64,000 nt of DNA from Humibacter ginsenosidimutans (GTDB taxonomy: Bacteria; Actinomycetota; Actinomycetes; Actinomycetales; Microbacteriaceae), in the NCBI RefSeq assembly GCF_007859675.1, contig NZ_CP042305.1, forward strand, positions 2,046,001-2,110,000. Direction: 5' to 3'. Below the pieces are notes generated by a model, which searched no databases, was not told where the DNA came from, and saw only the letters and a program-made list of their open reading frames with translations. Made by a program: the position numbers and the translations under genes. Shown in pieces: positions 12,251 through 51,096 of the stretch. Position 1 is the first letter of the stretch, and each line of letters opens with the position of its first letter.

Positions 12251-13930
12251 ATGAATTCGGGTAAGTACGGCAACTTCGGCGACGGCAACTTCGGCGACGG
12301 CGGACTCGCCGGCAGCGATCTCAACGGAAGCTCGTTCGGAAAGCCATCGGGAATCTCGCGCAGAACAGTCATGAAAGGGGCGGCCTGGAGCGTTCCGGTG
12401 CTGGCCGTATCGGCGGCCGTTCCCGCGTACGCAGCGGTGAGTCCCACCCAGTGTTCGCCCGCGGGAACACTGTTCAACGCACAGTCTCGCGGCATTCTGC
12501 TCAGCGGCACGGTTGCGGGCACGGACCTTGACGATGTGGCGAAGCTCGAAGGAGTGCACGCCACGGCATTCTCGACGAACACGCCGCCGAAGGACGTCCA
12601 GGACACCGAGACGAGCCCGCTCGATGTGACCGCCCTCAGCGCAGTTCAACTGAACCTCACGGGCGTCGGCACCGTGTTGAGCGACATCCTGAGCCTGGTC
12701 TCCGGCAATCAGAGCGTCGGCACCGTGAACCAGTACGCCTACGCACACGAGGATCCGACCGCGCATCCCACCCTGGGTGCATCCGGTGCGGTGACGGACT
12801 CGGGTGCCATCGCCCTGACGACCAGCTCCCAGAACGTGCCCGAGGTCGCCGATCTCAAGCTCAAGACCATCCTCCAGCAGGTCACCGGCAACTCGGCGGT
12901 GACCGCACTGCTCAGCTCGATCACCGACCTCGACCTGCAGGTCGGTGCCGCAGCGGGTCGCGCATCGCTGAGCTCCCTCTGCCTGACACCTCGCCCCAGC
13001 GAGCTGGACCGCGACTATCTCATCGCATACATCAGACTGCTGGTGACCTCGCAGGTCGTCGGCGACCTGCTCAGCGGACTTACGACCGCGGTGCCGAAGT
13101 TGACGATCAGCACGGATGCCGTCTGGGGCTTGTTGGGGCAGGTCCCGCTCCTGGGACCCCTGCTCGAAGCACTCGGCGAAGGCGTGCTGCATGCCTCGCT
13201 CTCGTTCAACATGGACCTGCTGACGGCTGCACCGATACCGAATGTGCCGACCTCCGCGCTGCAGGTCGATCTCGCCAAGGGAACTCTGACCATCGATGTC
13301 GCATCGCTCCTCGGCGGTGCCTACACCGGCGAGATCTCGCCTCTGCTGAACGAACAGAACCCGAACACTCGCCTGTTCATCGACTGGGAGCTCCCCGCCG
13401 ACGCGGCCACTGAGCTGGTGAACAACTGGGTGACCGCCGTCACCGACGTGCTGTACAACGTGATCTCGATCGACATCACGGCGGGCAGTGTGAGCGGCGT
13501 CCTTCCCACCGGGCTGGAGCTCACAGGGACGCTCGGCCAGTTCCTCAACGGCACGGCGACGGTGAAGTTCGTCCTTGCCGGAGTACCGATCACTCTGGCT
13601 GCTGACGTGCTCGCGGGCCTCCTGGCCGGCATCGGCGGCCTGGTCACGGCCGAGATCGCCGCTCTGTTCGCCCCTGGAGGTGCACTGGCGTCTGTGCTGA
13701 CCGCGCTGAACGGGCTGCTGAGCAGCCTGTTCACCGTGCTGCAGGACGTGCTCGTGCTCACTGTCAACGCGCAGAACGCGGCGACGGGCGCGATCCCGGA
13801 CTACTTCCAGCACATCACGCCCACAGGCCGGTACGACGTGGCGGCGTTGAACATCCAGCTCGTCGGACTGCTCAACGTGCTGAGCCTCAACCTCGCACGG
13901 GGGTCGGTCGGCCAGAACGTCGCACGTTAG
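12251..13930 (+). CDS. Tat-exported choice-of-anchor G family protein
   Basis: 559 residues. A Gly/Asn/Phe-rich N-terminal segment precedes a twin-arginine signal (SRRTVMKGAAW, residues 36-46) and hydrophobic core ending AVPAYA, with cleavage near residue 60. The mature part begins with the family's NAQSRG-LLSG---G-DLDD-A-LEGVHA and continues with VNQYA and SGAVTDSGAI. Family members are actinobacterial surface proteins of unknown role that carry various C-terminal anchors; none is visible here (it ends in RGSVGQNVAR). An AGGGGA ribosome-binding site lies upstream. Its signal resembles those at 33633 and 36085. Confidence 0.85.
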   Translation: MNSGKYGNFGDGNFGDGGLAGSDLNGSSFGKPSGISRRTVMKGAAWSVPVLAVSAAVPAYAAVSPTQCSPAGTLFNAQSRGILLSGTVAGTDLDDVAKLEGVHATAFSTNTPPKDVQDTETSPLDVTALSAVQLNLTGVGTVLSDILSLVSGNQSVGTVNQYAYAHEDPTAHPTLGASGAVTDSGAIALTTSSQNVPEVADLKLKTILQQVTGNSAVTALLSSITDLDLQVGAAAGRASLSSLCLTPRPSELDRDYLIAYIRLLVTSQVVGDLLSGLTTAVPKLTISTDAVWGLLGQVPLLGPLLEALGEGVLHASLSFNMDLLTAAPIPNVPTSALQVDLAKGTLTIDVASLLGGAYTGEISPLLNEQNPNTRLFIDWELPADAATELVNNWVTAVTDVLYNVISIDITAGSVSGVLPTGLELTGTLGQFLNGTATVKFVLAGVPITLAADVLAGLLAGIGGLVTAEIAALFAPGGALASVLTALNGLLSSLFTVLQDVLVLTVNAQNAATGAIPDYFQHITPTGRYDVAALNIQLVGLLNVLSLNLARGSVGQNVAR

Positions 13931-14097: not shown

Positions 14098-15351
14098 TCA
14101 GACGGCCCTGAGCACGCCGAGTCGGGTCAACTCCTCCACAACAGCGGCGACGGCATCCTCGGGATCGACTCCGGGTGGGGCGCCGTGCGCAGCGACGGCC
14201 GCCACGGTGAGCTCCGCGAGGGTCGCCCCGTCGGCCGCACGCCAGAGGGTAGGGGCGATGCCTGCGAGCAGCCAGAAGTCGCCCGTGCCCAACTCCTCGG
14301 ACGCCTTCAGCAGCGCGAGCCGGTCCGGGTCTCGGAAGGCGAGCACATCGTGGGTGCGAGTCCTCCGGTAGCGAAGCTCGCCCGCCCCCGACGCGGCCAC
14401 AACAGGCTCGCGCCCGCTGTCCGTCGGCGTCGGAGCGGACTCGCCTCCTGGCACTCGAATGCCCTCGGCCAGAGCGGCCTCACGCGCAGCGCCTCGCGAT
14501 CGCGGCAAGCCGACGCCATCGTCTGCCTCGCGTCCCGGAAGGGGCGAGTGCTGCGGGGTTCTGGCGAGCAGCTGATCGAGCACCGCGACCAGCGATTCAG
14601 CATCCCGGTATCGCACCCGCAGCACCCGTGTCTCGACCGCGTGGTTCGCGATCGTCCGCAACGGTGCGGGCATCGTTGTCAGATAGCTCGACTGCATCAC
14701 CAGGTCGGACAGCGCGTCGGCGAGATCGACGGGCTCGACGACGGCGGTGACGTCGGCGTTCTCGGCACGTTCGAGCAGCACAAGGGCGGCCAGCCGAAGC
14801 TGTGACTCCGGCAGCTCCCGCAGATGCAGTTCGGATGGCGACCGCTGCACCTTCGGCGCGTTGACCTCCTCGATGACCGACAGGGGTTTGCGATAGGGCC
14901 AGACCCGGCCCTCCTCATCGACGGCGACGGTCTCGTCCGAGACATAGCCGAGGTGAGAGCCGAGCGCTCGCGCGGCGGTCGTCTTTCCGCGACCCGACGG
15001 CCCCACGAGGGCGACCACACGTCCGTCGGACGATGCGAGGCCGGCGGCGTGCAGCATCCAGAGCCTTCCGCGCTGCCGTTCGATCGCCGCCAGAGTGACA
15101 CGCTGCGACAGCTCCGAGAGCACCGAGGCCGCCTCGGTCCATGGTGCCGCCGTCACCTCGACCGCGTCCGGCCCCGTGCCTTGCTCCCCGCCGTCGCCGG
15201 CATCCGGCCCGGCGGAGAGCTCCGTGCATGACGATGGAACGAGGGCATCGCGCCAAGCGGCCGCCACGGCCTCGCGGGTGGCCTCGTCGAGGTCGTCGCC
15301 GCGGATGCGCACCTTCACGCCCAGCGCGTCTACCAGCACGCTCCACCCCAC
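14098..15351 (-). CDS. HPr-kinase-like ATP-binding protein fused to a PqqD-like domain
   Basis: 417 residues from GTG 15351. The middle is an HprK-type kinase core: P-loop GPSGRGKT (117-124), then LGYVSDETVAVD with the acidic pair at 139-140, as in HprK-related proteins rather than true HPr kinases (no HPr-binding N-domain). After a low-complexity linker (about 270-330), residues about 350-417 look PqqD-like (FWLLAGIAPTLWRAADG, Asp/Glu-rich helix, LTRLGVL). PqqD domains bind leader peptides in RiPP pathways. Nearby are a free PqqD protein, a nucleotidyltransferase and glycosyltransferases. Substrate unknown. Confidence 0.75.
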   Translation of the reverse strand: MGWSVLVDALGVKVRIRGDDLDEATREAVAAAWRDALVPSSCTELSAGPDAGDGGEQGTGPDAVEVTAAPWTEAASVLSELSQRVTLAAIERQRGRLWMLHAAGLASSDGRVVALVGPSGRGKTTAARALGSHLGYVSDETVAVDEEGRVWPYRKPLSVIEEVNAPKVQRSPSELHLRELPESQLRLAALVLLERAENADVTAVVEPVDLADALSDLVMQSSYLTTMPAPLRTIANHAVETRVLRVRYRDAESLVAVLDQLLARTPQHSPLPGREADDGVGLPRSRGAAREAALAEGIRVPGGESAPTPTDSGREPVVAASGAGELRYRRTRTHDVLAFRDPDRLALLKASEELGTGDFWLLAGIAPTLWRAADGATLAELTVAAVAAHGAPPGVDPEDAVAAVVEELTRLGVLRAV

Positions 15352-15357
15352 CGCATC

Positions 15358-15363
15358 AGTCTA
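15358..15363 (-). promoter_or_regulatory. Candidate -10 box for a leaderless kinase transcript
   Basis: TAGACT on the minus strand (15363-15358) fits the actinobacterial TANNNT -10 pattern and ends 6 nt before the GTG start at 15351, so transcription could begin at the start codon. No convincing -35 is seen. Leaderless mRNAs are common in actinobacteria; the assignment is inference. Confidence 0.3.
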
Positions 15364-15553
15364 GGGGGCGCCAGGAAACGGCTGCACCGAGCGTCGAACG
15401 CCTGCACCGCTCACAGTGCCCGCTGCCCTGCCTGGACGATTCGTCGTCGCACGCGAGCCGCTCCCCGCAGACGAGCGCGCAATAGACTCGCTACGCCCAC
15501 CCGCCACGTGTTTCCCACACGACGCCCGCCCGCTGCGAAGGAAGTGCCCCTCC

Positions 15554-16603
15554 GTGCCGCAGAACGCCCGCCTCCGAGCCGTGACCGACGTCGCCATCGC
15601 CACGAACAACGGCGACATCGGCGGCGGCGAAGTCATGATGCTGCGCATCGCGACTGCGCTCCGCGAGCGGGGCATCCGGGTCACCGTCGTCGTCCCGCGT
15701 GCACCTGACGCGGTCGCCCAGGTCGCCATGCACGCGGGCCACACCGTGGCGGTGCTCGACGCGGACGACCGCCCGGAGTGGATGCGCGCGCTGCGACGCT
15801 GGGACGCCCGCCGGCGCACCGGAGTGCTGTGGTGCAACGGACTCGTTCCGGCGGTCGCGACGGCCGGGCATCGCCGCCGTGTCGTGCATCTGCATCAGCG
15901 GCCCACCGGCATCCACCGGCCGCTCTCGGTGATGGCGCGCGCACGGGCATCCGCCGTGCTTGTGCCGTCGCGCAGCATGCTGGCGGAGGTACCGCACGCC
16001 CGGGTACTGCCGAACTGGACGGATCCTCTCCCTGCGACCACCCGCCTTCGCGCCCCGGGCGACCCGTTCGTGGTCGGCTTCCTGGGACGGGTCTCGATGG
16101 ACAAGGGCATCGGCGTGCTGGCGGAGGCGCTGCGGATGCTCGACCAGCGGCATCCCGGAGCATTCCGTCTCGCTCTCGGCGGCGAGTCACGCTTCGTCTC
16201 GGACGCGTCAGTCGCCGCATCGGAGGCGGCGCTCGCGCCGATCGCACCGATCACGGACCGGCTCGGCTGGATCGACCCCGCCGATCTCTTCGATCGCATC
16301 GACCTGCTCGTGGTGCCCTCGGTACAACCGGAGACGTTCGGGCTCGTGGCCGCCGAGGGCATGTCGGCCCGAGTGCCCGTGCTCGTCACGGATGCCGGTG
16401 CCCTGCCCGAGGTGGTCGGCGACGAGCATCCTCTCATCGTGACAGCAGGCGACCCGACGGCGCTCGCCGAGAAGATCGTCGCAGCGAGCGATGGCCGGCT
16501 ACGCGCAGACGTCGACGCCCAGTACGCGCGGTGGCTCACGTGCTTCTCGCCGGACACTGGCGCCCGGCACGTGCGCGAGCTGCTGTCGGAGCTCGCTCCG
16601 TAA
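15554..16603 (+). CDS. GT4-type glycosyltransferase
   Basis: 349 residues from GTG 15554, chosen because AAGGAAG lies 9 nt upstream; GTG 15581 is the alternative. A GT-B retaining glycosyltransferase: N-terminal domain with NNGDIGGGEVMM, and a C-terminal nucleotide-sugar domain with GFLGRVSMDKGI, LGGESRF, and PSVQPETFGLVAAEGMSA containing the EX7E-type glutamates. Cytosolic, probably membrane-associated. It is divergent from the kinase and converges on pqqD/nucleotidyltransferase/wzy. Acceptor unknown. Confidence 0.88.
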   Translation: MPQNARLRAVTDVAIATNNGDIGGGEVMMLRIATALRERGIRVTVVVPRAPDAVAQVAMHAGHTVAVLDADDRPEWMRALRRWDARRRTGVLWCNGLVPAVATAGHRRRVVHLHQRPTGIHRPLSVMARARASAVLVPSRSMLAEVPHARVLPNWTDPLPATTRLRAPGDPFVVGFLGRVSMDKGIGVLAEALRMLDQRHPGAFRLALGGESRFVSDASVAASEAALAPIAPITDRLGWIDPADLFDRIDLLVVPSVQPETFGLVAAEGMSARVPVLVTDAGALPEVVGDEHPLIVTAGDPTALAEKIVAASDGRLRADVDAQYARWLTCFSPDTGARHVRELLSELAP

Positions 16604-16631
16604 CGTCGGACTCGCGCTGTCGCATCGAGCC

Positions 16632-16937
16632 TCAGGCCGTCGCCGTGCCCTCGTCCTGCACGGCCAGCAGGCCCCTCCGCGTGAGGATGTCGAGGAACTC
16701 GGAAACCTCGACACCGTCGAACGCGTCCTGTGCTCCTTCGGCGTCGGCCGCGGCTCGCAGCTCGTCGACGGTCGAGGCACCGTCGGCGAGCAGCACCCAG
16801 ATCAGCCACGCGGTGTCGTTGAGCACGAACGTCTCCCCTGTGGCCAGGTCGGCGACCCAGGCCGTGCGCTCGCGACGTCCGCCGTCCAGAGCATCGATCC
16901 AGGCCAGGTCGTTCCTGATGGCGTACCGGACGGTCAC
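16632..16937 (-). CDS. PqqD-family small protein
   Basis: 101 residues from GTG 16937, overlapping the nucleotidyltransferase stop as GTGA. The family pattern is clear: WVADLATGETFVLNDTAWLIWVLLADG-STVDEL, an acidic stretch and EFLDILTRRGLLAV. PqqD-like proteins are small winged-helix chaperones that present leader peptides to modifying enzymes; stand-alone copies also sit in glycan clusters with HprK-like kinases. No radical-SAM enzyme, protease or precursor peptide is adjacent. Last gene of the minus-strand operon. Confidence 0.85.
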   Translation of the reverse strand: MTVRYAIRNDLAWIDALDGGRRERTAWVADLATGETFVLNDTAWLIWVLLADGASTVDELRAAADAEGAQDAFDGVEVSEFLDILTRRGLLAVQDEGTATA

Positions 16938-17824
16938 GTTGAAGCCCCATCGTCATGCCCGCGAAGGCGGGATGCCAATGCCCGCCCGGCCGAGCCTGCT
17001 GCCTTGCCGACGCGCGCGAACTGCTCGGCCACGACCTCACGGCCGGTCGGTTCGTGACCGAGCCGTATCCGCAGGTGGGTGCGGTTCACACGCGTGGCCC
17101 GAGCCAGCACGCGCATGCGGGCGCGGAATCCCTCCGCCGAGCGGAAACGAGCACGCCACTCTTCCAGCCGATCACCGCCCTCGCGCGACCAGTAGTCCCA
17201 CAAGGCGTAGTCCGGGTCATCGCGATGGAGCTCGAGCTCGCCGATCCCCGCCGCGAACGCCGCTTGTCCCTCCAGCTCCTCGGCGAGCGCCCGCACCTGG
17301 GGCTTCAGCTGCTCGGGGCACTGCTGCCACGTCTCTGACTGGTCGTACCCGTGCGACCGGGCCACGTGCATGGTCTGCACGAGCACTTGTCCGCGCGGCG
17401 AGAGCACGGTGCAGGGCCGGTGCGCGATCGCGAGAACGCCTCGCTCCCGCCACAGCCGGTCGAACACTGTCTCTGGGCTCTCTCGGAATCCGGGGATCCT
17501 GCGGTGCACATCCACCCAGGTCCACGATGGATGCTGGTAGTTGGCCGCGTGGCCGAACGGCGATCCCTCGTCGAAGTCGGAGTACAGCGACCAACCGCGG
17601 GCTCGAAGTGCCCGAACGAACGTCTCCAGCTGTTCCGGGCGCACGAGCACGTCGGCATCGGTGGAATCGTGGACGGCGGCGCGGAAGGCGGCATCCGTCG
17701 GCCCCTTGATGTGCAGGATGTCCACCCTGGCCTCGTCAGCCACAGCCTGCAGCGCTGCATGGGTGAGGTGCACCCTTGCCCAGACCGGAACCGACTGCAC
17801 GGAGTCATTCCCCGCTTCAGCCAC
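16934..17824 (-). CDS. NTP_transf_5-type nucleotidyltransferase
   Basis: 296 residues from GTG 17824, which makes an 8-nt overlap with the wzy-like stop; the longer reading starts inside wzy. The uncharacterised nucleotidyltransferase fold is suggested by ILHIKGPTDAAF and, 13 residues on, STDADVLVRP, whose Asp pair would bind metal. A trp/charged helical C-terminal half follows. Family members travel with HprK-like and PqqD-like genes in polysaccharide clusters; the reaction is unknown. The last codons contain a CCCGC-GAAG-GCGGG palindrome (16958-16971). Confidence 0.75.
   Translation of the reverse strand: MAEAGNDSVQSVPVWARVHLTHAALQAVADEARVDILHIKGPTDAAFRAAVHDSTDADVLVRPEQLETFVRALRARGWSLYSDFDEGSPFGHAANYQHPSWTWVDVHRRIPGFRESPETVFDRLWRERGVLAIAHRPCTVLSPRGQVLVQTMHVARSHGYDQSETWQQCPEQLKPQVRALAEELEGQAAFAAGIGELELHRDDPDYALWDYWSREGGDRLEEWRARFRSAEGFRARMRVLARATRVNRTHLRIRLGHEPTGREVVAEQFARVGKAAGSAGRALASRLRGHDDGAST
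16951..16974. repeat. REP-like palindrome in the 3' end of the nucleotidyltransferase gene
   Basis: CCCGC-GAAG-GCGGG (16958-16971), flanked by ATG and TCATG, resembles interspersed palindromes known in many genomes. Being coding here, it supplies the C-terminal residues. Only one copy is visible in the window. Confidence 0.4.
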
Positions 17825-19079
17825 GAGCGCGGACCCGCGATGACGAGCCGGACGCCGACGTGCCTGCCACGAGCGGCTCGCGATACCACGGCTGTCGTGC
17901 CGGGGGAGCAACGCCCTGATTCTCGACCGAGGAGACGGCGAGGTTCGCAAGTCCCACCCCGAGCACGAGGAATCCGGCGGGGCTCAAGAAGACCTCACCC
18001 AGACGGCTGGCGCAGTAGAAAACGACGAGGGTTGCTGCTGCCACGACGCGAGTGTCGTAGTCGGTGACGCGGATCACTGACGAGCGAGCACGCATCCCGA
18101 AACCCGCCAGTACATAGCAAAGGAGGATACCTACGGCGAAGATGACGCCACCCTCGACGATGAGGTCCTCATAGGAGCTGTTGAAGAACCACGTGGCACC
18201 CTCAAGGTGCACCACACCCTGCGCCAGACCGTCCCCGTACCAGGGCGTGGCAGCGGTCTTCACAAGCGATGCGGCATCGATGCGAGCGCGCAAGGCATCC
18301 GAGCCCGCCCGGTCCGTTGCGATGACGCCGATGCCCTGTGCGATGGTCAAGTTGGCCCAGACGAACGCACCCGTGAGCGCGGCACCGAGCAGTACCTGGA
18401 ACGCGCGCCCCAAGCGCTGCGTGCAGCACAGCCAGATCACCGCGGCGGCATACGCTGCCATGCCCGTCCTTGATCCCGTGTCCACGACAGCAAGCGCTCC
18501 CAGCACGAGTATCCCTGCGCGCAACCAGACGCGCCGCACCACCACGGTCAAGAGGATCGTCCCGACTGCGTAGTAGAGACCGGCGGCATTGGGGTCCTGC
18601 AGAAGGCCCGTCAGGCGCCCGTCGTAGTCATTCGGTGCGAGATGCAGATAGAACAGTCCGACGTTGACGGCGAGACCCAGACCCAGCCCTTTGATGACCG
18701 AGCCGACGTCGATCCTGCCGCTGGCCATGAACGCAGCCGTGAATGCGAGGATGACGATGTTCGCGGCGCGGCGAAGCGGATCGACGCCGTTGTACAAGGT
18801 CTCCAGGGCTGCATAGGCGATCAGCACCAGTGCCAGCCACGGGAACCAGCGCGCCAGGCCCAGCGAGCGTGTCGGGCGACGAAAGGCGGCGACGGCAACG
18901 AGCAGCACCAATGCCAGTTGTGCCGTGGGGATCGAGCCGCCGATGAGGGATATGCGCACAACGACGAATCCCGCGAGCACCGCGTCGACGATGCGGGCCG
19001 AGTGCGGCAACGGCACGAGCCTGCGCGTCGGAGGATGCAGGGCCGCCCGCGATCCTGCTGGACTGATGGCGGTCATCAT
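17817..19079 (-). CDS. Wzy/O-antigen-ligase-like polytopic membrane protein
   Basis: 420 residues with about eleven hydrophobic segments and a periplasm-facing loop at about residues 245-310. The segment GRLTGLLQDPNAAGLYYAVG followed by VVDTGSRTGMAAY matches O-antigen ligase/polymerase family proteins, where such loops carry catalytic Arg and His; polymerisation or ligation of lipid-linked glycan outside the membrane is the expected role. It lies 164 nt after the GT4 gene upstream and overlaps the nucleotidyltransferase by 8 nt. Polymerase versus ligase cannot be decided. Confidence 0.8.
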   Translation of the reverse strand: MMTAISPAGSRAALHPPTRRLVPLPHSARIVDAVLAGFVVVRISLIGGSIPTAQLALVLLVAVAAFRRPTRSLGLARWFPWLALVLIAYAALETLYNGVDPLRRAANIVILAFTAAFMASGRIDVGSVIKGLGLGLAVNVGLFYLHLAPNDYDGRLTGLLQDPNAAGLYYAVGTILLTVVVRRVWLRAGILVLGALAVVDTGSRTGMAAYAAAVIWLCCTQRLGRAFQVLLGAALTGAFVWANLTIAQGIGVIATDRAGSDALRARIDAASLVKTAATPWYGDGLAQGVVHLEGATWFFNSSYEDLIVEGGVIFAVGILLCYVLAGFGMRARSSVIRVTDYDTRVVAAATLVVFYCASRLGEVFLSPAGFLVLGVGLANLAVSSVENQGVAPPARQPWYREPLVAGTSASGSSSRVRARG

Positions 19080-20290: not shown

Positions 20291-21174
20291 TCGGCAGAAC
20301 CTGTTCTTCCCGTCGATCGGCGACGTCCCCAGAAGGCGAACGGCGCCCGAATCATCTTTACCACCCTCGGGAATCGAGTGCGAAGGTTCTCGAGCCAACG
20401 GTATCGATGTCGCAGGTCATTGATCTGATCTTGTTGGCTGAAGATGAACCGGAACAGATCTTCAGCATGCTCGACATAGAGACGATGATTGTTGCGCAGC
20501 AGGCGCGCGCTGGTCTCCACGAGCAAGTCTCGATCTTTGGCAAAAGAATCGTTCATCGATCGGCCGGACTGGCGGTAGTGGAAGTAAACCCCGTCAAGAC
20601 GCACTGGATATCCCCCGAGTGCAAGAAGTTTGAGGACGAAATCATGATCTTCTCTACCCCGCTTGAAGAACGGGTCGTATCCACCAACCCTTACCCAATC
20701 GGCTCTGCGGTAGAGGCACGAACAAAAGATCAAATTGTGGACAAGGATTCTCTCCCACGAGAAGTCCGGCAATTCCCACGGACCCGTGCGGGTCCCGAAC
20801 AACTCGGCCCGACTGTACACCAGACGCGCATCCGGCTGTCCAGACAACGCCAACACCGCTTCTTCGACATACCGGGGGTCGATCAGGTCGTCTGCATCCA
20901 GCGGTAGAACGTATTCAGCGTTGCTGGCGGCGATCGCAGCGTTCCGCGCCGCTGACAGACCGCTGTTCTCTTGGCGGATCAACCGCACCCGCGGCTTCTG
21001 TGCGACGCGGACGAGCGCATCCAGCGTCCGAAGATCCGTCGAGCCGTCATCGACGACAATGACGTCGAGGGGTACGTAGGTCTGGGCCAGAGCAGACTCC
21101 ACGGATTCGATGACGACATCGCCAGAGTCGAAGCATGGAACGACGACCGAGACGGAGCCCGACCCACCGCTCAT
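20287..21174 (-). CDS. GT2-type glycosyltransferase
   Basis: 295 residues. GT-A fold: SVVVPCFDSGD at the N-terminus, VDDGST (41-46), ENSGLSAARNAAI, and the metal-binding LDADD (92-96), then GREDHDF as the likely catalytic-base region. Its ATG overlaps the ABC transporter stop (ATGA) and its stop overlaps the next GT4 start. By hand count 20401-20700 is about 52% G+C against about two thirds elsewhere, suggesting later acquisition. Confidence 0.88.
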   Translation of the reverse strand: MSGGSGSVSVVVPCFDSGDVVIESVESALAQTYVPLDVIVVDDGSTDLRTLDALVRVAQKPRVRLIRQENSGLSAARNAAIAASNAEYVLPLDADDLIDPRYVEEAVLALSGQPDARLVYSRAELFGTRTGPWELPDFSWERILVHNLIFCSCLYRRADWVRVGGYDPFFKRGREDHDFVLKLLALGGYPVRLDGVYFHYRQSGRSMNDSFAKDRDLLVETSARLLRNNHRLYVEHAEDLFRFIFSQQDQINDLRHRYRWLENLRTRFPRVVKMIRAPFAFWGRRRSTGRTGSAE

Positions 21175-22982
21175 GCGAGTTCTCCTAGTTCCACCAGACG
21201 TGCAAACGACGGCGTGGACGCACGAACCTCTGTGAACGAGCCCTCGCCCTCCACCGTGCCATCACTCAAGAACACGAGCTTGTCCGCGTCTCGCACCGTA
21301 GAAAGCCTGTGGGCGACGATGATGACAGTGATCTGCCCGTGCAGTGCTCGGAGCGTCTGAGTAATCTGATGCTCGGTTTCGTTGTCGAGTGCTGACGTCG
21401 CCTCATCTAGCACGAGAACGCGTGGTCTTCTGAACAAGGCCCGCGCGAGACCGACCCGCTGACGCTGCCCGCCGGACAGACGCGTACCGCGCTCACCGAC
21501 GATCGTCTTCAATCCATTGGCCAGGCTCCTTACATACGAGTCGAGTTGCGCCATCCGCACGACCTCGTGCAGCAGGGCACGATCAGCGTCGTCGAGGGGC
21601 CTCCCGTAAGTGATGTTCGCTTCGAGAGTGTCGTTCAGAAGGAAGACGTCTTGCGGCACCACGCCCAGGCCCTCGTACCATCGAGCCACATCATCGTTGA
21701 TCGACACCCCTCCGCAGGTGATCTCTCCCGATGTCGGCTGCTGAAGGCCCAGGATGAGGTCTATAACCGTCGACTTTCCCGCGCCGCTTGCACCCACGAT
21801 CGCGGTCGTGGTGTGCTCGGAGATCTTCATGTCGAGATCTCGAAGCACCGGGGCCGGGTCATCCGGGTAGTGAAAGCCGACCGAACGCAGGACGATGTCT
21901 CCGCGGTAGGGTTCGGCGGACCGCGGCGCCTCGCAATGAGCCACGCTCCGATTCAACGTGTCCGCAGCCTCCGTGAGGAGGCCCAGGCTCACGGTCCCAG
22001 AACGCACGGACCCGATATTGGCCGACACCCTGGTCATTGTGGGCAGCCCTCGGAGCGCGGCGGCGGCAAAGATCGCCAGCACCGTAAGCGCATCGGACGC
22101 CGAACCTGTGACGAAGAGGATGGCGGCCATTCCCGCGACCGCAAGGATGAAGATGATCTGCAGTAGATACTTCGGCAGTTCCGACAGCAATGAATACGCC
22201 TGATTCGCACGCGCCGTGCGGATGCGCGCCTCCCCGAAGCCACGCACGAAGCGTTCAGCGCTCGACGAAAGCCGGGCCTCACGGAAACCATCGAGCACTG
22301 GCATGATGTGCGCCCACGCATCAAGGCTCGCTGCAGCCAGCTCTTCGCCCACACGCAGCTGTCTTCGTCGAAGAGACCGCTGGAAGGCCACCATGGCACC
22401 GGCGAAAAGCGCGATGGCGAAAAGCGTGACCAGCGGCGACGCGATCATGAGCACGACACAGATCCCGACGAGGGTCATCGCATCCGAGACGACGGTCACG
22501 GCGTTCAGCAACGTGTTGCTCGCTATGGTCGTCATGTCATTGATGTTCCGATACACATCGGGCAGATTCCTCGAGCGATGGTCGGCGTACGGGGCCAGCG
22601 CATAGCGCCTGAGAAGCTCCGTCGCCGCGTCGGCTCCGATTCGTGTGGTCCGTCCCAAGAGCCACCACCGGAAGAGGATCATGAGCGCACTGCTCACGAT
22701 GAAGAGGAGCGCCACGCACAGCGCAAAGGCCGGGATCAACACAGCGGGATCGTTGGTGCCCAGAATGTCGACAACCACCTTGACGACCGACGATTGACTC
22801 TCCGTCGTCGAGAAAAGCTGCATGAGTGGAACCATTGCTGCAACGCCGATCATGTCGAGCAGCGCCAGCAAAAGCGAGAGCACAGCCGTCGTCACGACCC
22901 AGCGTGCGGGATGCACCCTAGCGAGTTGCAGGAGGACTTTCATGCCGTGTACGGACCGTGAGTCCGCGTTCTCTGTTGCCAT
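21171..22982 (-). CDS. PglK-like ABC exporter (lipid-linked oligosaccharide flippase)
   Basis: 603 residues, a half-transporter with six membrane helices (about 25-330) and an ATPase domain (about 360-600). Visible are Walker A GASGAGKS, the Q-loop region VVPQDVFLLNDT, signature LSGGQRQR, Walker B VLVLDEATSALD and the switch HRLS. The length and arrangement fit type IV exporters such as PglK, which flips undecaprenyl-PP-linked oligosaccharides. Its ATG abuts the GT4 stop directly. No Wzx-type flippase is in the window, so this is the likely exporter of the glycan unit. Confidence 0.85.
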   Translation of the reverse strand: MATENADSRSVHGMKVLLQLARVHPARWVVTTAVLSLLLALLDMIGVAAMVPLMQLFSTTESQSSVVKVVVDILGTNDPAVLIPAFALCVALLFIVSSALMILFRWWLLGRTTRIGADAATELLRRYALAPYADHRSRNLPDVYRNINDMTTIASNTLLNAVTVVSDAMTLVGICVVLMIASPLVTLFAIALFAGAMVAFQRSLRRRQLRVGEELAAASLDAWAHIMPVLDGFREARLSSSAERFVRGFGEARIRTARANQAYSLLSELPKYLLQIIFILAVAGMAAILFVTGSASDALTVLAIFAAAALRGLPTMTRVSANIGSVRSGTVSLGLLTEAADTLNRSVAHCEAPRSAEPYRGDIVLRSVGFHYPDDPAPVLRDLDMKISEHTTTAIVGASGAGKSTVIDLILGLQQPTSGEITCGGVSINDDVARWYEGLGVVPQDVFLLNDTLEANITYGRPLDDADRALLHEVVRMAQLDSYVRSLANGLKTIVGERGTRLSGGQRQRVGLARALFRRPRVLVLDEATSALDNETEHQITQTLRALHGQITVIIVAHRLSTVRDADKLVFLSDGTVEGEGSFTEVRASTPSFARLVELGELA

Positions 22983-30078: not shown

Positions 30079-31010
30079 GCGCGACCCCGCGATGCCTGGT
30101 CGGTGCGCGCCGGTCGCAGGCAGGCGAGTTCCTGCCGGAACACCGTCACGGGCTCCACACGACGTCCGGCGAGCCGGCGCAGACCATTAGATGCCAGGTT
30201 CACGACGCTCGCGGCCGTCAGCGCAGCCCGCAGACGGCCCGGCCCCTCGTGCCACTTGCGGGCGTAGCGCAGTCGCGCGTGCGTCACCCAGGCCCGGCGC
30301 CGTCCGTCGTCGGAGGAACCACCGCCAGCGTGCACTGCCGTCACGCTGCCGAGGAAGATCGACGGGATGCCGCGTGCCCGCAATCGCCGCTGCAGATCGA
30401 CCTCCTCGCAGTTCATGTGGAACCCCTCGTCGAAACCGCCGACGCTCCGTACCAGTTCAGTGGGCATCAGCAGCACCGCGCCGACGACCCAGTCGACCGG
30501 CACCGTCGCACGGACCACGGCACGCGTGTCGTGGCCGATCGCCTCATGAAGCCTGGGCCGGAACCGTGCAAGCACCGTCAGCCACTCGATCACGTAGTGC
30601 CGGGTACGCGGGAATGTGCGCCCCGCCCATTGATCGTGGCCGTCCGGGCCCGTGAGGTGGCATCCGCACACAGCCGGCATCCATGGGGCGGCGGCACGGC
30701 AGAGGTCCCCGACGAAATCGTCGGGCAGATCCAGGTCGCTGTTGAGCACGAGCACGGCATCGTGCACGGCGGCGAGCATGCCGGTGTTGACGGCGGCCCC
30801 GAAGCCCCCGTTGCGGTCGCGGCGCACCAGCTGCACGCCCTCGAGCTCGGGGAAGGGCTGCGGCGACGCGTCGTCGACGACGATGACCTGCATGATCGGG
30901 GCATCGACCTGCGCCCGCAGCTGCATCACCAACGATTGGGCCGATGCAGGGTCGCCGTAGTGGGGTATGACGATCGAGACGGCATCGATCGCCGTCTCAT
31001 GGTCCGTCAT
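30075..31010 (-). CDS. GT2 (rhamnosyltransferase-like) glycosyltransferase
   Basis: 311 residues. SIVIPHYGD, VVDDAS, DRNGGFGAAVNTGM, LNSDLDLPDDF (metal-binding SDLD near 91-94), and WVVGAVLLMP--L--SVGGFDE-F-MNCEEVDLQRR, the pattern of WbbL-like family 2 transferases. The ATG overlaps the phosphatase stop (ATGA). Adds one sugar to the lipid-linked unit in the cytosol. Confidence 0.88.
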   Translation of the reverse strand: MTDHETAIDAVSIVIPHYGDPASAQSLVMQLRAQVDAPIMQVIVVDDASPQPFPELEGVQLVRRDRNGGFGAAVNTGMLAAVHDAVLVLNSDLDLPDDFVGDLCRAAAPWMPAVCGCHLTGPDGHDQWAGRTFPRTRHYVIEWLTVLARFRPRLHEAIGHDTRAVVRATVPVDWVVGAVLLMPTELVRSVGGFDEGFHMNCEEVDLQRRLRARGIPSIFLGSVTAVHAGGGSSDDGRRRAWVTHARLRYARKWHEGPGRLRAALTAASVVNLASNGLRRLAGRRVEPVTVFRQELACLRPARTDQASRGRA

Positions 31011-31660
31011 CGCTCCCCGCTCCCGGCACTTCCGACAAGAACATGTTCGGCGGAGTGCCGCTGCGATCGGCGGGTGGGCAGCGGCCGAGCCTTGGGCGGC
31101 ATCGCGTCGGCCGAGACCGAGCCGATCATGGGAAGGATGATCCGCAACAGCTCGTCGATCCGTTCCACGGCCGTCTCCGCCGCCTCGACTCCCAACCCAT
31201 AAGGATCCGCGAAGTCGTCCGCCTCGGTGTAGGCCCGCGCGTCAGCCACCAGCGCCTGGATCGCCTGATCGGGGGTCTCTCGGCGTCGCGCGGCCCGCCT
31301 CAGAACTCTGGCCGCTCGGAGCACCGTGAACGTGCGGTTCCGCACAGCGGGCTCCTGCTCCAGCACCCACGAACGATGGGCAGACTCGAATGCGAGGATC
31401 AGCTGCGCGCCACGGAGATCGGCCGGCGTCGCCTGGCGCGCCACGTGCCCGCGCACGGAGATGCTGCGTCTGCGCAGCGCGTCGCCGATCTCGGAGTCGA
31501 TCGGATGTCCGACGAGGGCCCGGACTCCCGCACTGGACACGTCCCACTCCGGCTCGACGTGGGCTGCGTGCCCGGTTCCGATCAGGCGTCGCGCGATGAG
31601 CTCGGCTGCGGCGGACCGAGCGATGTTCGCATGACAGAGCAGAAGCAGCCGTCGCGTCAC
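31007..31660 (-). CDS. Low-molecular-weight protein-tyrosine phosphatase (Wzb-like)
   Basis: 217 residues from GTG 31660, set by the GTGA overlap with the kinase stop. The P-loop is CHANIARS (residues 9-16: Cys, five residues, Arg, Ser) and the general-acid loop is likely FADPYG. These enzymes dephosphorylate the partner BY-kinase and control glycan length and export. The polypeptide is longer than the usual 150 residues, with an Arg-rich insertion after the middle and a C-terminal tail. Directly downstream of the kinase, the usual wzb/wzc pairing. Confidence 0.85.
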   Translation of the reverse strand: MTRRLLLLCHANIARSAAAELIARRLIGTGHAAHVEPEWDVSSAGVRALVGHPIDSEIGDALRRRSISVRGHVARQATPADLRGAQLILAFESAHRSWVLEQEPAVRNRTFTVLRAARVLRRAARRRETPDQAIQALVADARAYTEADDFADPYGLGVEAAETAVERIDELLRIILPMIGSVSADAMPPKARPLPTRRSQRHSAEHVLVGSAGSGER

Positions 31661-33374
31661 TGATCGCCTCGAGGAAGACCGGAGGCACGGCGTCCGCTTC
31701 GACGCGAGGTGAGCTGCGATGGATCGGACGCTTGGTCGGACAACGACGGATCGGGCAGGTCGAGCTCCGTGAAGGGCCACGGTGATTCCTGCTGCGAGTC
31801 GACGGGCTTCGGTTCCACAGGTCCGGCGCTGGGCGACGTCACGGGAGTCGGCGCTGCGGGAGCCGGTGCGACGGGCGCGGGCATCTGCGGCTCGACGAGC
31901 CGAGCCTGCGGCATCCCGGACCGGCCGGCGGCCGCCGTCGCGCGCGCTTGAGCGGCGGTGGCGGGGGAAGCGACTTCATGCGGTGCAGGAACCGGCGTGA
32001 CCTTTTTCGCCGCGTCCCTACGACGCTTGCCGCTCTCGGGACGCGTGTAGTAGCTGCGGTTGTTGTGGTAGTAGCTGTATCCGCCATCACGGTCGTTCAC
32101 GGGCACCTTGTTCAGCACCACGCCGAGCAGCCGGGACTTCGCCTGTTCGAGCAGTCGGCGCGCCGCGGTCACCTCGGCCTTGCGGGTCTGCCCGACCGCC
32201 ACGACGAAGAGCGTGCCGTCGGCGACAGCGCCGACCAGCAGGGCATCCGTCACCGGGAGCACGGGCGGAGCATCCACCACGACGAAGAACCGCTCGCGGA
32301 GCTCGCGCAGCAGCGCTTCGAAGGCGTGCGCACCGAGCATCTCGGAGGGATTCGGCGGCGTTCCGCCTGCCGGCAGCACCATGAGGTTCTCCCGACCAAC
32401 GGTGCGGACGGCCTCCTGCACCGGGACCTGGCCGCTGAGCACCTCGCTCAGCCCGATGGTGCCGTCCATGTCGAACTGACGCGCAACGGACGGTCGCCGA
32501 AGGTCGGCGTCGATGATCAGCGTCGGCTGGCCGGACTCGGCGATGACGGCGGCGAGCCGTGCGGCCACGGTCGACTTGCCCTCGCTCTGGTTGGGACTCG
32601 TCACCACCACGCAGCGCACTTCGCCATCGACGCTCGAGAAGCGCAGTCCGGTGCGCACCTGCCGGAACGACTCGGCAGAGAGCCGATCGAGTTCGCCGCC
32701 CCGCACACCGCCCTTGCCCTTGAACCGTGGCACGCGGCCGAGCACGCCAGTGCCGAGCAGTTCGATCATGTCGGTGCCTGCGCGCACGCGAACGTCGAGT
32801 GCGCGCCGCAGAAGGATCACGATATAGCCGAGGACGAGCCCGGCGAGCGCACCGATCGGAAGGACGAGCTTGGGCTTCGGCGAGACGGGCGTGGAGGGTG
32901 CGGTCGCGTTATCGAGCGGTATGACTTTGAGGTGCGGGGTGTCCGATGCGCCCCCCGCCTTCTGGATCTCGGTGATCACGTCGGCGAGCGCCGAGAGCGC
33001 TCCGTTGGCCAGCCGCGCAGCCCCCTGGGGGAGCTGGCCGTCGCCGTGACCTGGATCATCGTGGTACCGGCTACGAGGCTTGCGTCGAGGTGCCCCCTGA
33101 TGGCGCCCGGGTCGATACCCTCTGTCTTCGCGATGCGGTCGTAAACGGGCGCACTCGAGATCAGCGGCAGATACGATCCGGCCTGCTCGGTGGCTTGATC
33201 TGTGCCGGCGACCACGCTCGATCCGGAGCCGCTGATGAACCCGTTGGAACTGGCCTGGTAGGTCTTCGGCGCAAGCAGCACGTATGCGCCGGCCACGAGC
33301 AGCCCGAACACCACGGCGAGCAGAAGCGTCTTCCAGCCGCGGCGCGTGAGCGTGACGAAGTCGAGCACGGTCAC
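31657..33374 (-). CDS. Wzc-like polysaccharide co-polymerase / tyrosine autokinase, with frameshift
   Basis: About 572 residues if repaired. N-terminal part (GTG/ATG near 33374): membrane segment at about 17-37 and the start of a Wzz domain, read to VTATASSP. The rest is in another frame from ARLANGALSALADVITEI on, with a second membrane segment, Walker A SPNQSEGKST, Walker A' IIDADLRRPSV, Walker B VVVDAPPVLPVTDA, a Tyr cluster (GGYSYYHNNRSYY) and a Pro/Ala-rich tail. Adding one C to the C5 run at 33021-33025 restores one frame. It heads the long glycan operon. Confidence 0.85.
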
Positions 33375-33632: not shown

Positions 33633-34514
33633 TCAGACGTACCAGGGGCCGGCGTTCGTGGTGGATTCAGTTGTCGCCGTGCCATCGGAAGGGGCAACCG
33701 ACTCGGGGCTGACAACGTTCTGCTGCTGCACTCCGAACAGTCGGTTGTTCGAGCAGCCGTCGTCGAGCGGGCCCACCCATCCGTTGTTCCGCCAGTGCAT
33801 GTCATTGTTGCTGGTGGTGGGGTAGTTGGCGCTGCCCCCGCAATAGTTGCCGTTGTAGGACCCGCTGCAATTCGACATCTGGGTGCTGTTCAGCGAGTAC
33901 GTGTACGCGTGCGACACCCACAGATCACCGCCGGTGACACACGAATTGGATTTGATCGTGAACTTGTAGTCGGGGGTGAGGTGGAAGACGCCGTTCGAGT
34001 CGACGTCTCCCGCTCCGACCGTCACCGGCCCCGTGAGCTTCGTCACCCAGGGATAGTACGTGTGAGAACCGGGCCCGATGATGGTGCCATAGGTCGCAGC
34101 GTCGCAAACAGGAGCGGACCACTTGCCCGTACCGGTGCCCGACTGGTTCGACACTGTTCCGCTGTTGAACGGCAGCCAGTAGATGTTGATGATGTTGCTG
34201 TAGACCTGGCCGACTGACGCGTTGGGGAAGAGAACTCCGTGGTACGACAAGCCCGAAGACGACGTGTTGTCGATGGTCCAGCTGTAGGTGCCGCTGCTTC
34301 CCGAGCACCTTCCGCACGTGACGGTGCCGTCCGTGTTGCCCCAGCTCGAGAACACCCTCGGGATGTCGGGGCCTGAAGCCGCGGCGATCGGCACTGCGAC
34401 TGCCACCGCTACCGCGGGCACGGCCCAGGCTGCGCCCTTCACCAGAGAACGTCGGGAAAGGTGACTTCCAGGCTTTGGGGCCCGGAAACGGTCACCCGGC
34501 TGATTTTCGGGCAT
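33633..34514 (-). CDS. Tat-exported Cys-rich secreted protein, unknown function
   Basis: 293 residues. The twin-arginine signal SRRSLVKGAAWAVP (about 20-33) is followed by an Ala/Val core and a likely cleavage after AAAS (about residue 47). The mature part is Ser/Thr/Gly/Asn-rich with eight Cys, tryptophans in WGNTDG and WVSHAY, and no family I recognise. Signal residues match the proteins at 12251 and 36085 nearly word for word. The ribosome-binding site AGGAGA lies inside a palindrome at 34520-34534. Confidence 0.75.
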   Translation of the reverse strand: MPENQPGDRFRAPKPGSHLSRRSLVKGAAWAVPAVAVAVAVPIAAASGPDIPRVFSSWGNTDGTVTCGRCSGSSGTYSWTIDNTSSSGLSYHGVLFPNASVGQVYSNIINIYWLPFNSGTVSNQSGTGTGKWSAPVCDAATYGTIIGPGSHTYYPWVTKLTGPVTVGAGDVDSNGVFHLTPDYKFTIKSNSCVTGGDLWVSHAYTYSLNSTQMSNCSGSYNGNYCGGSANYPTTSNNDMHWRNNGWVGPLDDGCSNNRLFGVQQQNVVSPESVAPSDGTATTESTTNAGPWYV

Positions 34515-36084: not shown

Positions 36085-37761
36085 CTAACAGCTCGACGGG
36101 AGCTCGATGACGTACGCACCGCCGAAGTAGTTGCTGTTGTGGTAACCCCACACACCGAGATCGGCCGCCTTCGTGGTGAGCGGGATGGACAGTGCAGACG
36201 GGCTGGGCACGTTGTCGAGATTGCCGAACCAGACCCAGACCGTCCCATCGCTCGCAAGGGCGATGTAGGAGCCGTCGGACGAGAATGTCTTCGTTATCGT
36301 CTTGCCGTTCATGCCTGCCACTGACTGGGAGGTGTAGCCGTTCAGCCCGAACATCTCGGTGACAGTCCCGTTCACCACGTACGCACCGCCGAAGTACTGG
36401 CTGTAGCCCCACACGGACACACTCGAGACGTTCTGGGCCCGCCGGGTCCACGACCTGCTGCTGACGCCACCGGCACTGTACGGGTTGTATGTGTACAGGT
36501 CGCCGTTCGTGGTGAGCGCAGCGAGCCCACCGCTACCGGCGCCCACGTACTTGACTCCCGAGACCGCCGACGATCCGGTGCCTCCGGTCCTCACCGTGGC
36601 GAACGTGCCCGGCGGTTGCGACTTGCCGGGAGCGGCGACCACCAGATTGCCAGAGTCTCCGACGACCGCCACCACGCCGGTGTAGTACGACGTCTGGGGT
36701 CCGCTGCTCGGCAGTGCGTCATAGTAGCTCGACATCTGGGTCACGGGACCGGTGACGCCGCTCGGCAGGACAATGAGCGTCGGCGTGATCGCGGCCGAGC
36801 CAGACGTGGCGGTCGGCCAATAGTAGACACCACCGCTCGTCAATGCGTAGCAGTACCCCGCGTGCGCCTGCACATCAGACACAGTGGTCCCCGCAGGGAG
36901 TGTGACACTGAGCACGGTGGGGGTCGCCGTCGGAGTGCTGGCATACCACTGCCAAATCGCCGACTCGCTGGCCGCGACGCCACCCACGGCGGCACTCGAC
37001 GCACCGCCGCTGGTGGTGTTGGTGCTGTAGGTGCTGACGAGCGTCGCCCGAGTCACGGTGGAAAGCTCCGTCGGGCTCACCGTGGAGCCGTTGGCGAAGT
37101 CGGGGCTGGCCGGGACGGTCGTCGGGTTCTCCGCATGGGCGGACCAGTAGAGGACCGTGCCAGAGGCAGAGACGACGGCTGCGTAGGTGGTGCCCCAATT
37201 GTTGCCGGAAATGCCGCCCGTGGTCGCGGCCGCATCGGTGCTGCGCTGGACGATGTTCCTGTCGCTCGCGTCACCGTATTCGTACGAGCCCCAGACCTCG
37301 TCGACCTTGGAGCTTCTCACACCGACGGGGATCACCAGCAGCGCTCCGGTGGAGGCGCAGTCTGTCGTGACCGTCGCGGAGTAGCTGCCTGCAGCCACGC
37401 TGACGACCGTGATCTCAGGAACGTCCGCGTTCCCGCTGCTGTCCGTCTGGACCGAGGCCGAACTCGCACCACCGGCGAAACTGAACCCTGCAGGCAGAGT
37501 GATCGTCACCCACGACACCTTGCTGGTGTTTCGGTCCACGTGCACCGTCCAGGTGCCCGCTGGGATGGTGTCGCACGGCGGGAAGGGACTCGGATTGCCA
37601 ATCACCGACGCAGTGCAGGTTCCGGACGCGGCCGCAAGCGGCACCGTGGCCGCGACGGCGACGGCGGGCACGGCCCACGCGGCGCCCTTCACAAGCGTGC
37701 GGCGCGAGAGCTGCTGGCGTTCGCGGTTCGGAGACGCGGTATCGCTCGTCGTCTCGGGCAT
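36085..37761 (-). CDS. Tat-exported protein with RCC1/propeller-like repeats
   Basis: 558 residues. The signal SRRTLVKGAAWAVP (19-32) and core ending PLAAAS predict cleavage near residue 46. The mature Ser/Thr/Gly/Val-rich chain has recurring units such as YCYALTSGGVYYWP, GLAALTTNGDLYTY and YIALASDGTVWVWFG, resembling RCC1-type beta-propeller blades, plus VWGYSQYFGGAYVVNG and VWGYHNSNYFGGAYVIE near the end. No wall anchor. Function unknown; probably binds something at the surface. A GC hairpin lies in its leader. Confidence 0.7.
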   Translation of the reverse strand: MPETTSDTASPNRERQQLSRRTLVKGAAWAVPAVAVAATVPLAAASGTCTASVIGNPSPFPPCDTIPAGTWTVHVDRNTSKVSWVTITLPAGFSFAGGASSASVQTDSSGNADVPEITVVSVAAGSYSATVTTDCASTGALLVIPVGVRSSKVDEVWGSYEYGDASDRNIVQRSTDAAATTGGISGNNWGTTYAAVVSASGTVLYWSAHAENPTTVPASPDFANGSTVSPTELSTVTRATLVSTYSTNTTSGGASSAAVGGVAASESAIWQWYASTPTATPTVLSVTLPAGTTVSDVQAHAGYCYALTSGGVYYWPTATSGSAAITPTLIVLPSGVTGPVTQMSSYYDALPSSGPQTSYYTGVVAVVGDSGNLVVAAPGKSQPPGTFATVRTGGTGSSAVSGVKYVGAGSGGLAALTTNGDLYTYNPYSAGGVSSRSWTRRAQNVSSVSVWGYSQYFGGAYVVNGTVTEMFGLNGYTSQSVAGMNGKTITKTFSSDGSYIALASDGTVWVWFGNLDNVPSPSALSIPLTTKAADLGVWGYHNSNYFGGAYVIELPSSC

Positions 37762-50904: not shown

Positions 50905-51096
50905 GAGCCACCCCTCGCCATTCGAGCTGTCACCGTCGCAATCGAACGGGATCCCCTCAACTCGAAATGAATATCCTTCAGCATAGGCGGGTGCTCAGGC
51001 GAACAACAGGTTCCCAAAGGCCTTCGGAGCGCATCAGCGGATGCCCCGCCGCAGCATGTGCTGCAACGGGGCATCCTGGTCGGTTCGGGTCAGCTC
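50905..51096. terminator. Two-part hairpin after the giant adhesin (51039-51076)
   Basis: An outer stem GGATGCCCCG/CGGGGCATCC (51039-51048, 51067-51076) encloses an inner stem GCAGCA/TGCTGC (51051-51056, 51059-51064). It lies about 20 nt past the minus-strand stop at 51097 and is a strong terminator candidate, although without a T run. The rest of the gap holds the promoter side of the 1300-residue adhesin; no boxes are clear. Confidence 0.6.

Follow-up and report, generated by a model that had tools for sequence, protein, structure and literature searches.

The stretch of DNA considered here (64,000 nucleotides of Humibacter ginsenosidimutans, contig NZ_CP042305.1, positions 2,046,001 to 2,110,000; hereafter the window) contains an exopolysaccharide (EPS) cluster of ~38 kb (8.4-46.8 kb) in which an HprK-like kinase with a PqqD-like C-terminal domain is encoded near a free PqqD protein, an NTP_transf_5 nucleotidyltransferase, a family 4 glycosyltransferase (GT4) and a Wzy-like protein. 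All of these genes had been named in a preliminary description of the locus, and all were located by gene calls and profile searches (Table 1); the glycan-export setting that it suggested is likewise borne out by the position of the locus inside the EPS cluster. It had also recorded that no precursor or peptidase is seen, which does not hold for the window as a whole: a signal peptidase I (39.9-40.6 kb) and three proteins whose twin-arginine (Tat) signals carry a motif of the type read by RiPP recognition elements (RREs; RiPP, ribosomally synthesized and post-translationally modified peptide) lie outside the segment then described.

Table 1. Features of the window, with the components of the proposed system first and the surrounding EPS genes after them.
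Feature	Position	Strand	Basis and remarks
HprK/PEPCK-fold kinase with one C-terminal RRE domain (RRE1)	14098..15351	-	AlphaFold and Foldseek
RRE1 domain of the kinase, residues 320-417	14098..14394	-	Separate structure model
Free PqqD/RRE protein, equivalent of a second C-terminal RRE (RRE2)	16632..16937	-	PF05402
NTP_transf_5 protein	16934..17950	-	PF14907; real start in doubt, 17773 by coding score
Candidate substrate 1, Tat-type choice-of-anchor G protein, leader SRRTVMKGAAWSVPVLAVSAAVPAYAAVS	12251..13930	+	NF033766, 146.9 bits; leader model A1, E 2.2e-15 (row of the model)
Candidate substrate 2, Tat-type protein, leader SRRSLVKGAAWAVPAVAVAVAVPIAAAS, Ser at W+17	33633..34514	-	A1, E 8.2e-16 (row of the model)
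Candidate substrate 3, Tat-type protein, leader SRRTLVKGAAWAVPAVAVAATVPLAAAS, Ser at W+17	36085..37761	-	A1, E 4.8e-16 (row of the model)
Signal peptidase I of a distinct subfamily, candidate leader peptidase	39886..40602	+	PF10502, TIGR02227; start uncertain
GT4 gene, between the kinase and PqqD genes	15416-16603	opposite to kinase and PqqD	
Wzy-like protein	17817-19079	-	
MsbA-like ABC transporter (context)	21171..22982	-	TIGR02203, 266.6 bits (cut-off 602)
Low-molecular-weight (LMW) tyrosine phosphatase and Wzz/BYK (two open reading frames), the EPS control genes that most often neighbour the kinase	31007..33374	-	Pfam

The structure model of the kinase (pLDDT 87.4) matches PEPCK (2.0e-6) and HPr kinase (3tqf, 5.8e-5); in the structure search with the whole kinase, PEPCK entries fill the match list, so that the absence of other families there is uninformative. 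The protein combines the HprK/PEPCK fold with the conserved His, P-loop Lys and Asp of HPr kinase-like enzymes (H101, P-loop K123, D139 and E140 are invariant over 115 rows), and kinase activity is predicted on this basis. Modelled alone (pLDDT 92.0), RRE1 has a winged helix fold whose best structural matches are RREs, and hhalign pairs it with the free PqqD family (94%, E 1.5e-7); the PqqD-like character attributed to this domain thus survived structure modelling. The stand-alone PqqD protein is RRE-like as well (PF05402, 30.0 bits against a gathering score of 23.4) and matches the model of RRE2 (28.0 bits, E 1.2e-7), a domain that many relatives carry as a fusion to the kinase and the window in the free form. 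Across 109 distinct loci (112 minus the named loci L181, L229 and L236, which are the same places as family loci), RRE2 is fused in 24, free in 38 and never both. Its alignment columns match the lasso RREs TbiB1 (2.8e-5) and PbaB1 (1.4e-4) and also LppB (0.014). Residues of the binding cleft are kept in 52 RRE2 sequences (40 of 93 kinase tails and 12 free forms, that of the window included), namely F83 in 52, L87 in 51 and L41 in 49, with an Asp at the LppB D70 position in 39; in the first pocket most residues are small at positions that are bulky in PbaB1, and the RRE2 of the window diverges more strongly still. The NTP_transf_5 protein scores 43.3 bits (cut-off 31.2), and its gene overlaps the free PqqD gene by 4 nt. 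The GT4 gene lies on the other strand between the kinase and PqqD genes, and the set is therefore not one operon.

Thirty-three neighbourhood stretches were compared: the window and 32 others, each 26 to 60 kb long and drawn from 29 further family genomes (31 centred on the kinase, one on the NTP_transf_5 gene). Gene calls of at least 30 codons in these stretches were clustered by blastp (E 1e-6). Among the unassigned small genes in these neighbourhoods, a recurring N-terminus was found, a Tat signal in which Trp and Pro keep fixed positions, with the consensus RR-x7-W-x-x-P-x-[IVL]...P-x-A-x-A-S. In the leader model A1, built from 28 leaders over 36 columns, the twin Arg, W, P(+3) and P(+12) are invariant when positions are counted from W, and Ala at -2, -1, +14 and +16 and Ser at +17 reach at least 90%. 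The 113 unique leaders (130 model hits, minus 3 without RR..[WY]..P and then minus 14 duplicates) have, by sequence, the twin Arg, uncharged h-region and A-x-A site of Tat signals, with Ser at W+17 in 102 (Thr in 3), Pro at W+12 in 108 and I, V or L at W+5 in 106. The conserved Ser is the last conserved position of the leader and stands directly behind the predicted A-x-A site. It recurs at W+17 in 27 of 30 further leaders from order genomes and genome G085, a count that excludes four rows, representing three distinct genes, that lack an uncharged h-region; in these, by eye, Ser is also at W+17. In a small regular-expression control, Ser was at +1 in 17 of 29 W-x-x-P signals versus none of 13 other RR signals. 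The mature parts that follow are small (median 163 aa), and since a C-terminal LPxTG occurs in 1 and a hydrophobic C-terminus in 6 of the 113, most leader proteins have no evident anchor. All three leaders found in the window genome lie inside the kinase locus (repeat scoring of 39 of 54 candidates returned the same three), and a Pfam scan of candidate substrates 2 and 3 matched no family. Four of the 38 leader-positive family genomes encode at least 25 leader proteins each. Most discrete lasso RREs bind [Y/W]-x-x-P-x-[LVIAFY], which is present in PQQ and LPP leaders as well (PMC13381572), and W-x-x-P-x-[IVL], located here inside the Tat signal, is the recognition motif of RREs in lasso and LPP leaders.

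The leaders are associated with the kinase at several taxonomic depths. In the family (299 genomes; kinase counted at E < 1e-20, many kinase hits at E 1e-3 being P-loop matches that were left uncounted, and leader at E <= 1e-3), the kinase occurs in 30 genomes and leaders in 38, and leaders are present in 30 of 30 kinase-positive versus 8 of 269 kinase-negative genomes (Fisher 3e-34). The rows of A1 were drawn from 15 of the 30 kinase-positive genomes, and the 15 that contributed none all match A1 nonetheless (weakest G214, 1.9e-4). Within 12 genera that show both states, leaders were found in 23 of 23 kinase-positive versus 2 of 40 kinase-negative genomes (p 3e-15), the 40 congeners being a selection from listings that is perhaps not complete and this mixed-genus test being the one place where kinship is handled. 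The order survey (258 genomes, including G000 and G258, both sources of A1 rows) gave the kinase in 49 genomes and the leader in 50, with both in 43, the kinase only in 6 and the leader only in 7, i.e., leaders in 43 of 49 kinase-positive versus 7 of 209 kinase-negative genomes. At the level of the phylum, leaders occur in 2 of 198 genomes, exactly the two with a full kinase match, and five further genomes with short weak kinase hits have no leader. Of the 40 kinase-negative congeners, 35 encode an EPS sugar transferase and only 2 have leaders, so that the leader tracks the kinase and not EPS. NTP_transf_5 follows the same distribution (27 of 30 kinase-positive versus 6 of 269 kinase-negative family genomes), and the grouping of kinase and nucleotidyltransferase proposed earlier thus holds up in the co-occurrence search that was put to it.

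Several less specific origins of this signal were considered. Chance motif matches are made unlikely by the out-of-sample family test together with the order survey; a generic actinobacterial Tat signal is ruled out by the 196 of 198 phylum genomes without a match; and a leader that follows EPS instead of the kinase is not borne out by the sugar transferase distribution just given.

The signal peptidase I of the window scores 118.1 bits with PF10502 (39898-40602) and 110 bits with TIGR02227 (39994-40602; cut-off 47). Its subfamily, at 194-262 bits, was found in 19 of 29 kinase-positive versus 0 of 40 congeneric kinase-negative genomes (69 searched); the next score, 114 bits, is at a level seen in nearly all genomes and is thus presumably that of the housekeeping signal peptidase. 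In five genomes of one genus the subfamily peptidase is encoded at a large distance from the kinase or on a different contig, which argues that its link to the kinase is not mere neighbourhood. SGSM and VKRVIA stretches fit a Ser/Lys dyad. Against the archaeal model, the window enzyme gives no match at E 1e-3 and a relative reaches 20.5 (cut-off 51.85); the window enzyme is of the bacterial type rather than the archaeal-type signal peptidase (SipW-like, Ser/His/Asp) of LPP.

Physical linkage was scanned at 80 named loci of 146, in stretches extending no more than 10 kb from the kinase in either direction. A leader gene lies within the available stretch at 51 of the 80, and at 42 of the 57 loci with full-length stretches, against a chance expectation estimated at ~10 of 80 for 25 leaders per 4 Mb (a density reached by only 4 of 38 genomes); model searches found NTP_transf_5 at 47 and a signal peptidase at 41. 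In three genomes of one genus of another family (G325, G408 and G539), the order is NTP_transf_5, free RRE, kinase and 5 to 7 leader genes, all on one strand. The named loci are mostly from Microbacterium, with others in Agromyces, Leucobacter, Pseudoclavibacter, Compostimonas, Cryobacterium, Arthrobacter, Paenarthrobacter, Tessaracoccus and others. One contig labelled Stenotrophomonas maltophilia (L160) carries a kinase locus of the actinobacterial type (47% identity) and is possibly mis-binned. At five loci of one genus (L072, L082, L084, L088 and L092), the syntenic kinase locus stands beside genes for thymidine kinase and malate:quinone oxidoreductase; the signal peptidase is encoded elsewhere, and NTP_transf_5 is absent from that stretch.

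The surroundings of the locus are those of an EPS cluster, flanked by ribosomal-protein genes on one side and by tuf/fusA on the other, beyond two very large surface-type proteins (47002-60039, minus strand; 1300 and 2980 codons, with LPxTG-like C-termini) that adjoin tuf/fusA. Clusters shared among the 33 stretches include Wzz/BYK and LMW tyrosine phosphatase (28 each), EPS sugar transferase (23), NTP_transf_5 (19), signal peptidase I (13) and free PqqD (11, a cluster that does not include the PqqD of the window itself). GT4 and Wzy clusters occur in 15 and 5 stretches, respectively, and look like generic EPS genes, so that of the module as first drawn the kinase, PqqD and NTP_transf_5 are retained and the GT4 and Wzy are not. 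In the 31007..33374 region, LMWPc is above its Pfam cut-off and Wzz and GNVR are slightly below theirs; the window Wzz/BYK (31657-33374, minus strand) consists of two open reading frames (33374-32976 and 32979-31657) with a 4 nt overlap, and most related stretches have a single one of roughly 450-580 codons. The MsbA-like transporter cluster is found in 9 of the 33 stretches only. Between two of the Tat-leader genes, a membrane protein whose sequence suggests a thioredoxin-like C-terminal part with a CxxC (34842-35855, minus strand) belongs to a cluster present in 5 of the 33.

The probable, if far from certain, explanation of these data is a leader-directed protein modification system in which the RREs, kinase, NTP_transf_5 protein and peptidase act on the Tat-leader proteins. 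The PqqD-type RREs, kinase-fused and free, would grip W-x-x-P-x-[IVL] within the Tat signal while the substrate is still cytoplasmic; the HprK-type kinase would phosphorylate the conserved Ser at W+17, just past the predicted A-x-A cleavage site; and the NTP_transf_5 protein would put a sugar or nucleotide-sugar on the phosphate. The tagged protein would then be exported via Tat and cut by a signal peptidase I, often of the dedicated subfamily, so that the modified Ser becomes or neighbours the mature N-terminus, where it may tie an otherwise anchorless protein to EPS or the envelope. Gene content, folds, the motif, linkage and co-occurrence are what was observed; by analogy with the systems compared below, RRE binding of the Tat leader is likely, phosphorylation of the Ser at W+17 or +18 fairly likely, and sugar transfer by the NTP_transf_5 protein plausible; attachment of the tagged proteins to EPS is a speculative guess. 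The substrates are most likely whole exported proteins, in place of the peptide or carrier first suggested as the target. A broader version, in which the Tat signal doubles as a RiPP leader of a new N-terminal sorting system of Actinomycetota, whose RRE-kinase and sugar-transfer enzymes tag surface proteins, up to dozens in a genome, at their N-terminal Ser and tie them to EPS, as a Gram-positive N-terminal counterpart of PEP-CTERM/exosortase, is offered tentatively and is judged somewhat short of an even chance.

A number of observations weigh against this interpretation. Kinase and leader part company in both directions: six of the 49 kinase-positive order genomes have no leader (at E 0.5, four of the six give matches at E 0.02 to 0.5, none convincing), and leaders occur without this kinase in 8 family genomes (3 strong) and 7 order genomes (5 strong). 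Of the 8 family exceptions, five are single marginal hits (5.8e-4 to 9.9e-4) and G085, G165 and G199 are strong; a search of all 8 with TIGR04352 gave short weak hits in 3. The stretches around the leaders in G370, G395 and G509 contain no kinase hit at E 1e-4. Components are also missing in places, i.e., NTP_transf_5 from 3 of 30 kinase-positive family genomes, the peptidase subfamily from 10 of 29 kinase-positive genomes, RRE2 in either form from the examined stretch of 47 of the 109 distinct loci, and a leader from that of 29 of the 80 named loci. On the side of recognition, RRE1 lacks the Phe dividing the binding cleft, as read from alignments, and the free RRE of the window has Thr/Ala/Glu/Ala at the hydrophobic Trp pocket positions of PbaB1. 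One of the three leaders in the window, that of candidate substrate 1, has its Ser at W+18 and not +17, and the counts for W, P and Ser are partly conditioned because A1 itself contains these residues. Finally, in the test host used for LPP, deletion of its component LppN made no visible difference (PMC13381572). As a separate observation, the hit in G085 is a different HprK-like protein, within 10 kb of which a free RRE and also an ABC transporter are encoded, in an arrangement like a lasso-type cluster (L132 9470-10510, plus strand, and 14638-14964, minus strand).

The co-occurrence data are equally compatible with a chaperone or gate, in which the RREs proofread Tat signals, the kinase phosphorylates the leader to time export and the mature protein keeps no tag. 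Tat chaperones cover the h-region of the signal, which is where the motif is located. The travelling of NTP_transf_5 and a separate signal peptidase subfamily with the kinase, and a conserved Ser that lies at or after the predicted cut as the last conserved position, nevertheless make this alternative unlikely. Still less likely is an ordinary LPP- or lasso-like RiPP, with an unseen short peptide as the true substrate and the Tat proteins merely accompanying the locus. Although the enzyme set equals that of LPP in Bacillota (PMC13381572), and the limit of 30 codons in the clustering leaves very short open reading frames possible, leaders far from the kinase still track it and carry the RRE motif. 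Only three of the small clusters (median at most 200 aa) span several genera, namely LMW phosphatase in 28 stretches, PqqD in 11 and a single Tat-leader family in 7; the others, identified in part, occur in at most 8 of the 33 stretches, mostly syntenic and in few genera, and ten clusters put through Pfam included no cyclase or B2 peptidase, no dedicated model for either having been run. The remaining idea, close to the preliminary description, takes an EPS glycan or lipid carrier as the target of the kinase and NTP_transf_5 protein, with the Tat proteins as EPS-associated cargo; it draws on the frequency of Wzz/BYK and LMW phosphatase (28 of 33 stretches each) and EPS sugar transferase (23 of 33) near the kinase, and is very improbable given that 35 of 40 kinase-negative congeners have the sugar transferase and only 2 of them leaders, and that RRE domains bind peptides (PMC13381572).

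What would be new in the proposed modification system is the RRE motif inside an export signal, with candidate substrates that are whole proteins and often many per genome. RiPP enzymes are known for small peptide products; if Tat signals are read as well, a whole class of exported proteins of actinobacteria, Microbacterium and Agromyces among them, carries a hitherto unrecognised N-terminal modification, and bacteria would have a new way of marking proteins for the cell surface. A function would then follow for the many database kinases annotated as "PqqD family peptide modification chaperone". The leader would provide a short motif usable for finding substrates, and the question of what LPP-type nucleotidyltransferases add, and to what, would become testable on secreted proteins.

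The closest known system is LPP (LppA/K/B/S/D/N), published in 2026 and said to be restricted to Bacillota, in which the leader is bound by the RRE LppB, LppK adds phosphate repeatedly to a single Ser and the signal-peptidase-like LppS requires LppB for cutting, at loci within capsule clusters (PMC13381572). The locus shares with LPP an HprK-like kinase, a discrete RRE, an NTP transferase, a leader peptidase of signal-peptidase type, an MsbA-like pump (in the window, its cluster being in only 9 of the 33 stretches), a polysaccharide setting and a [Y/W]xxP leader followed at a distance of 17-18 residues by a Ser. The Ser that is phosphorylated in LPP stands 18 residues past the motif Tyr, as counted here from the numbering of the paper (PMC13381572). 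The locus differs from LPP in that an RRE is fused to the kinase, the peptidase is of bacterial type, the host belongs to Actinomycetota, and the candidate substrates are whole Tat-type proteins, with a W-type motif inside the Tat signal and at least 25 per genome in four genomes. The LPP leader YxxPxVLxHQxIxFETxxS was not found in the leaders, which read RR...WxxPxI...PxAxAS, other calls below 230 aa having been scanned for [YW]xxPx[VLIFA] within the first 60 residues only. Because the peptidase type, leader and phylum are different, the system is not LPP, but it would work like LPP. The term "unassigned" used in the preliminary description is therefore partly right, as LPP with the same parts has been published for Bacillota (PMC13381572) and a distant relative, HPr-rel-A, exists in NCBIfam. 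The latter also pairs an HprK-related kinase with a small PqqD chaperone (TIGR04352 HprK_rel_A, TIGR04353 PqqD_rel_X), but the proteins score far under its cut-offs (TIGR04352, 21.1 of 200 bits; TIGR04353, 24.1 of 35 bits), and by these cut-offs the system is not HPr-rel-A.

The lasso peptides paeninodin and pseudomycoidin (PadeK/PsmK, PsmN) likewise involve an HprK-like Ser kinase, a nucleotidyltransferase-like protein and a WxxPxL leader (PMC9266682, PMC13381572), the latter read by PbaB1 (PMC13381572), and PsmN is reported to put hexose on phospho-Ser, where a host enzyme could take part (PMC9266682). In those systems the Ser is at the C-terminus, whereas here the conserved Ser is at the signal cleavage site, no short precursor was seen and no lasso enzyme is among the identified clusters. 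The DUF2063 RRE/DUF2282 pairs resemble the present case in joining an RRE partner to precursors that bear an export (Sec) signal, but differ in that no specific RRE motif was seen in those pairs (PMC12710340). Searches of open-licence PMC literature on HprK, PqqD, Tat and RRE found no paper joining these parts, and the closest one (PMC13381572) does not mention Tat or twin-arginine. With PEP-CTERM/EpsH, the system shares many diverse exported proteins under one sorting motif, discovery by phylogenetic profile and a tie to EPS; PEP-CTERM/EpsH has a C-terminal tag, the membrane protein EpsH and hosts with an outer membrane (PMC1569441), whereas the system described here combines an N-terminal Tat signal with kinase and RRE enzymes in Actinomycetota.

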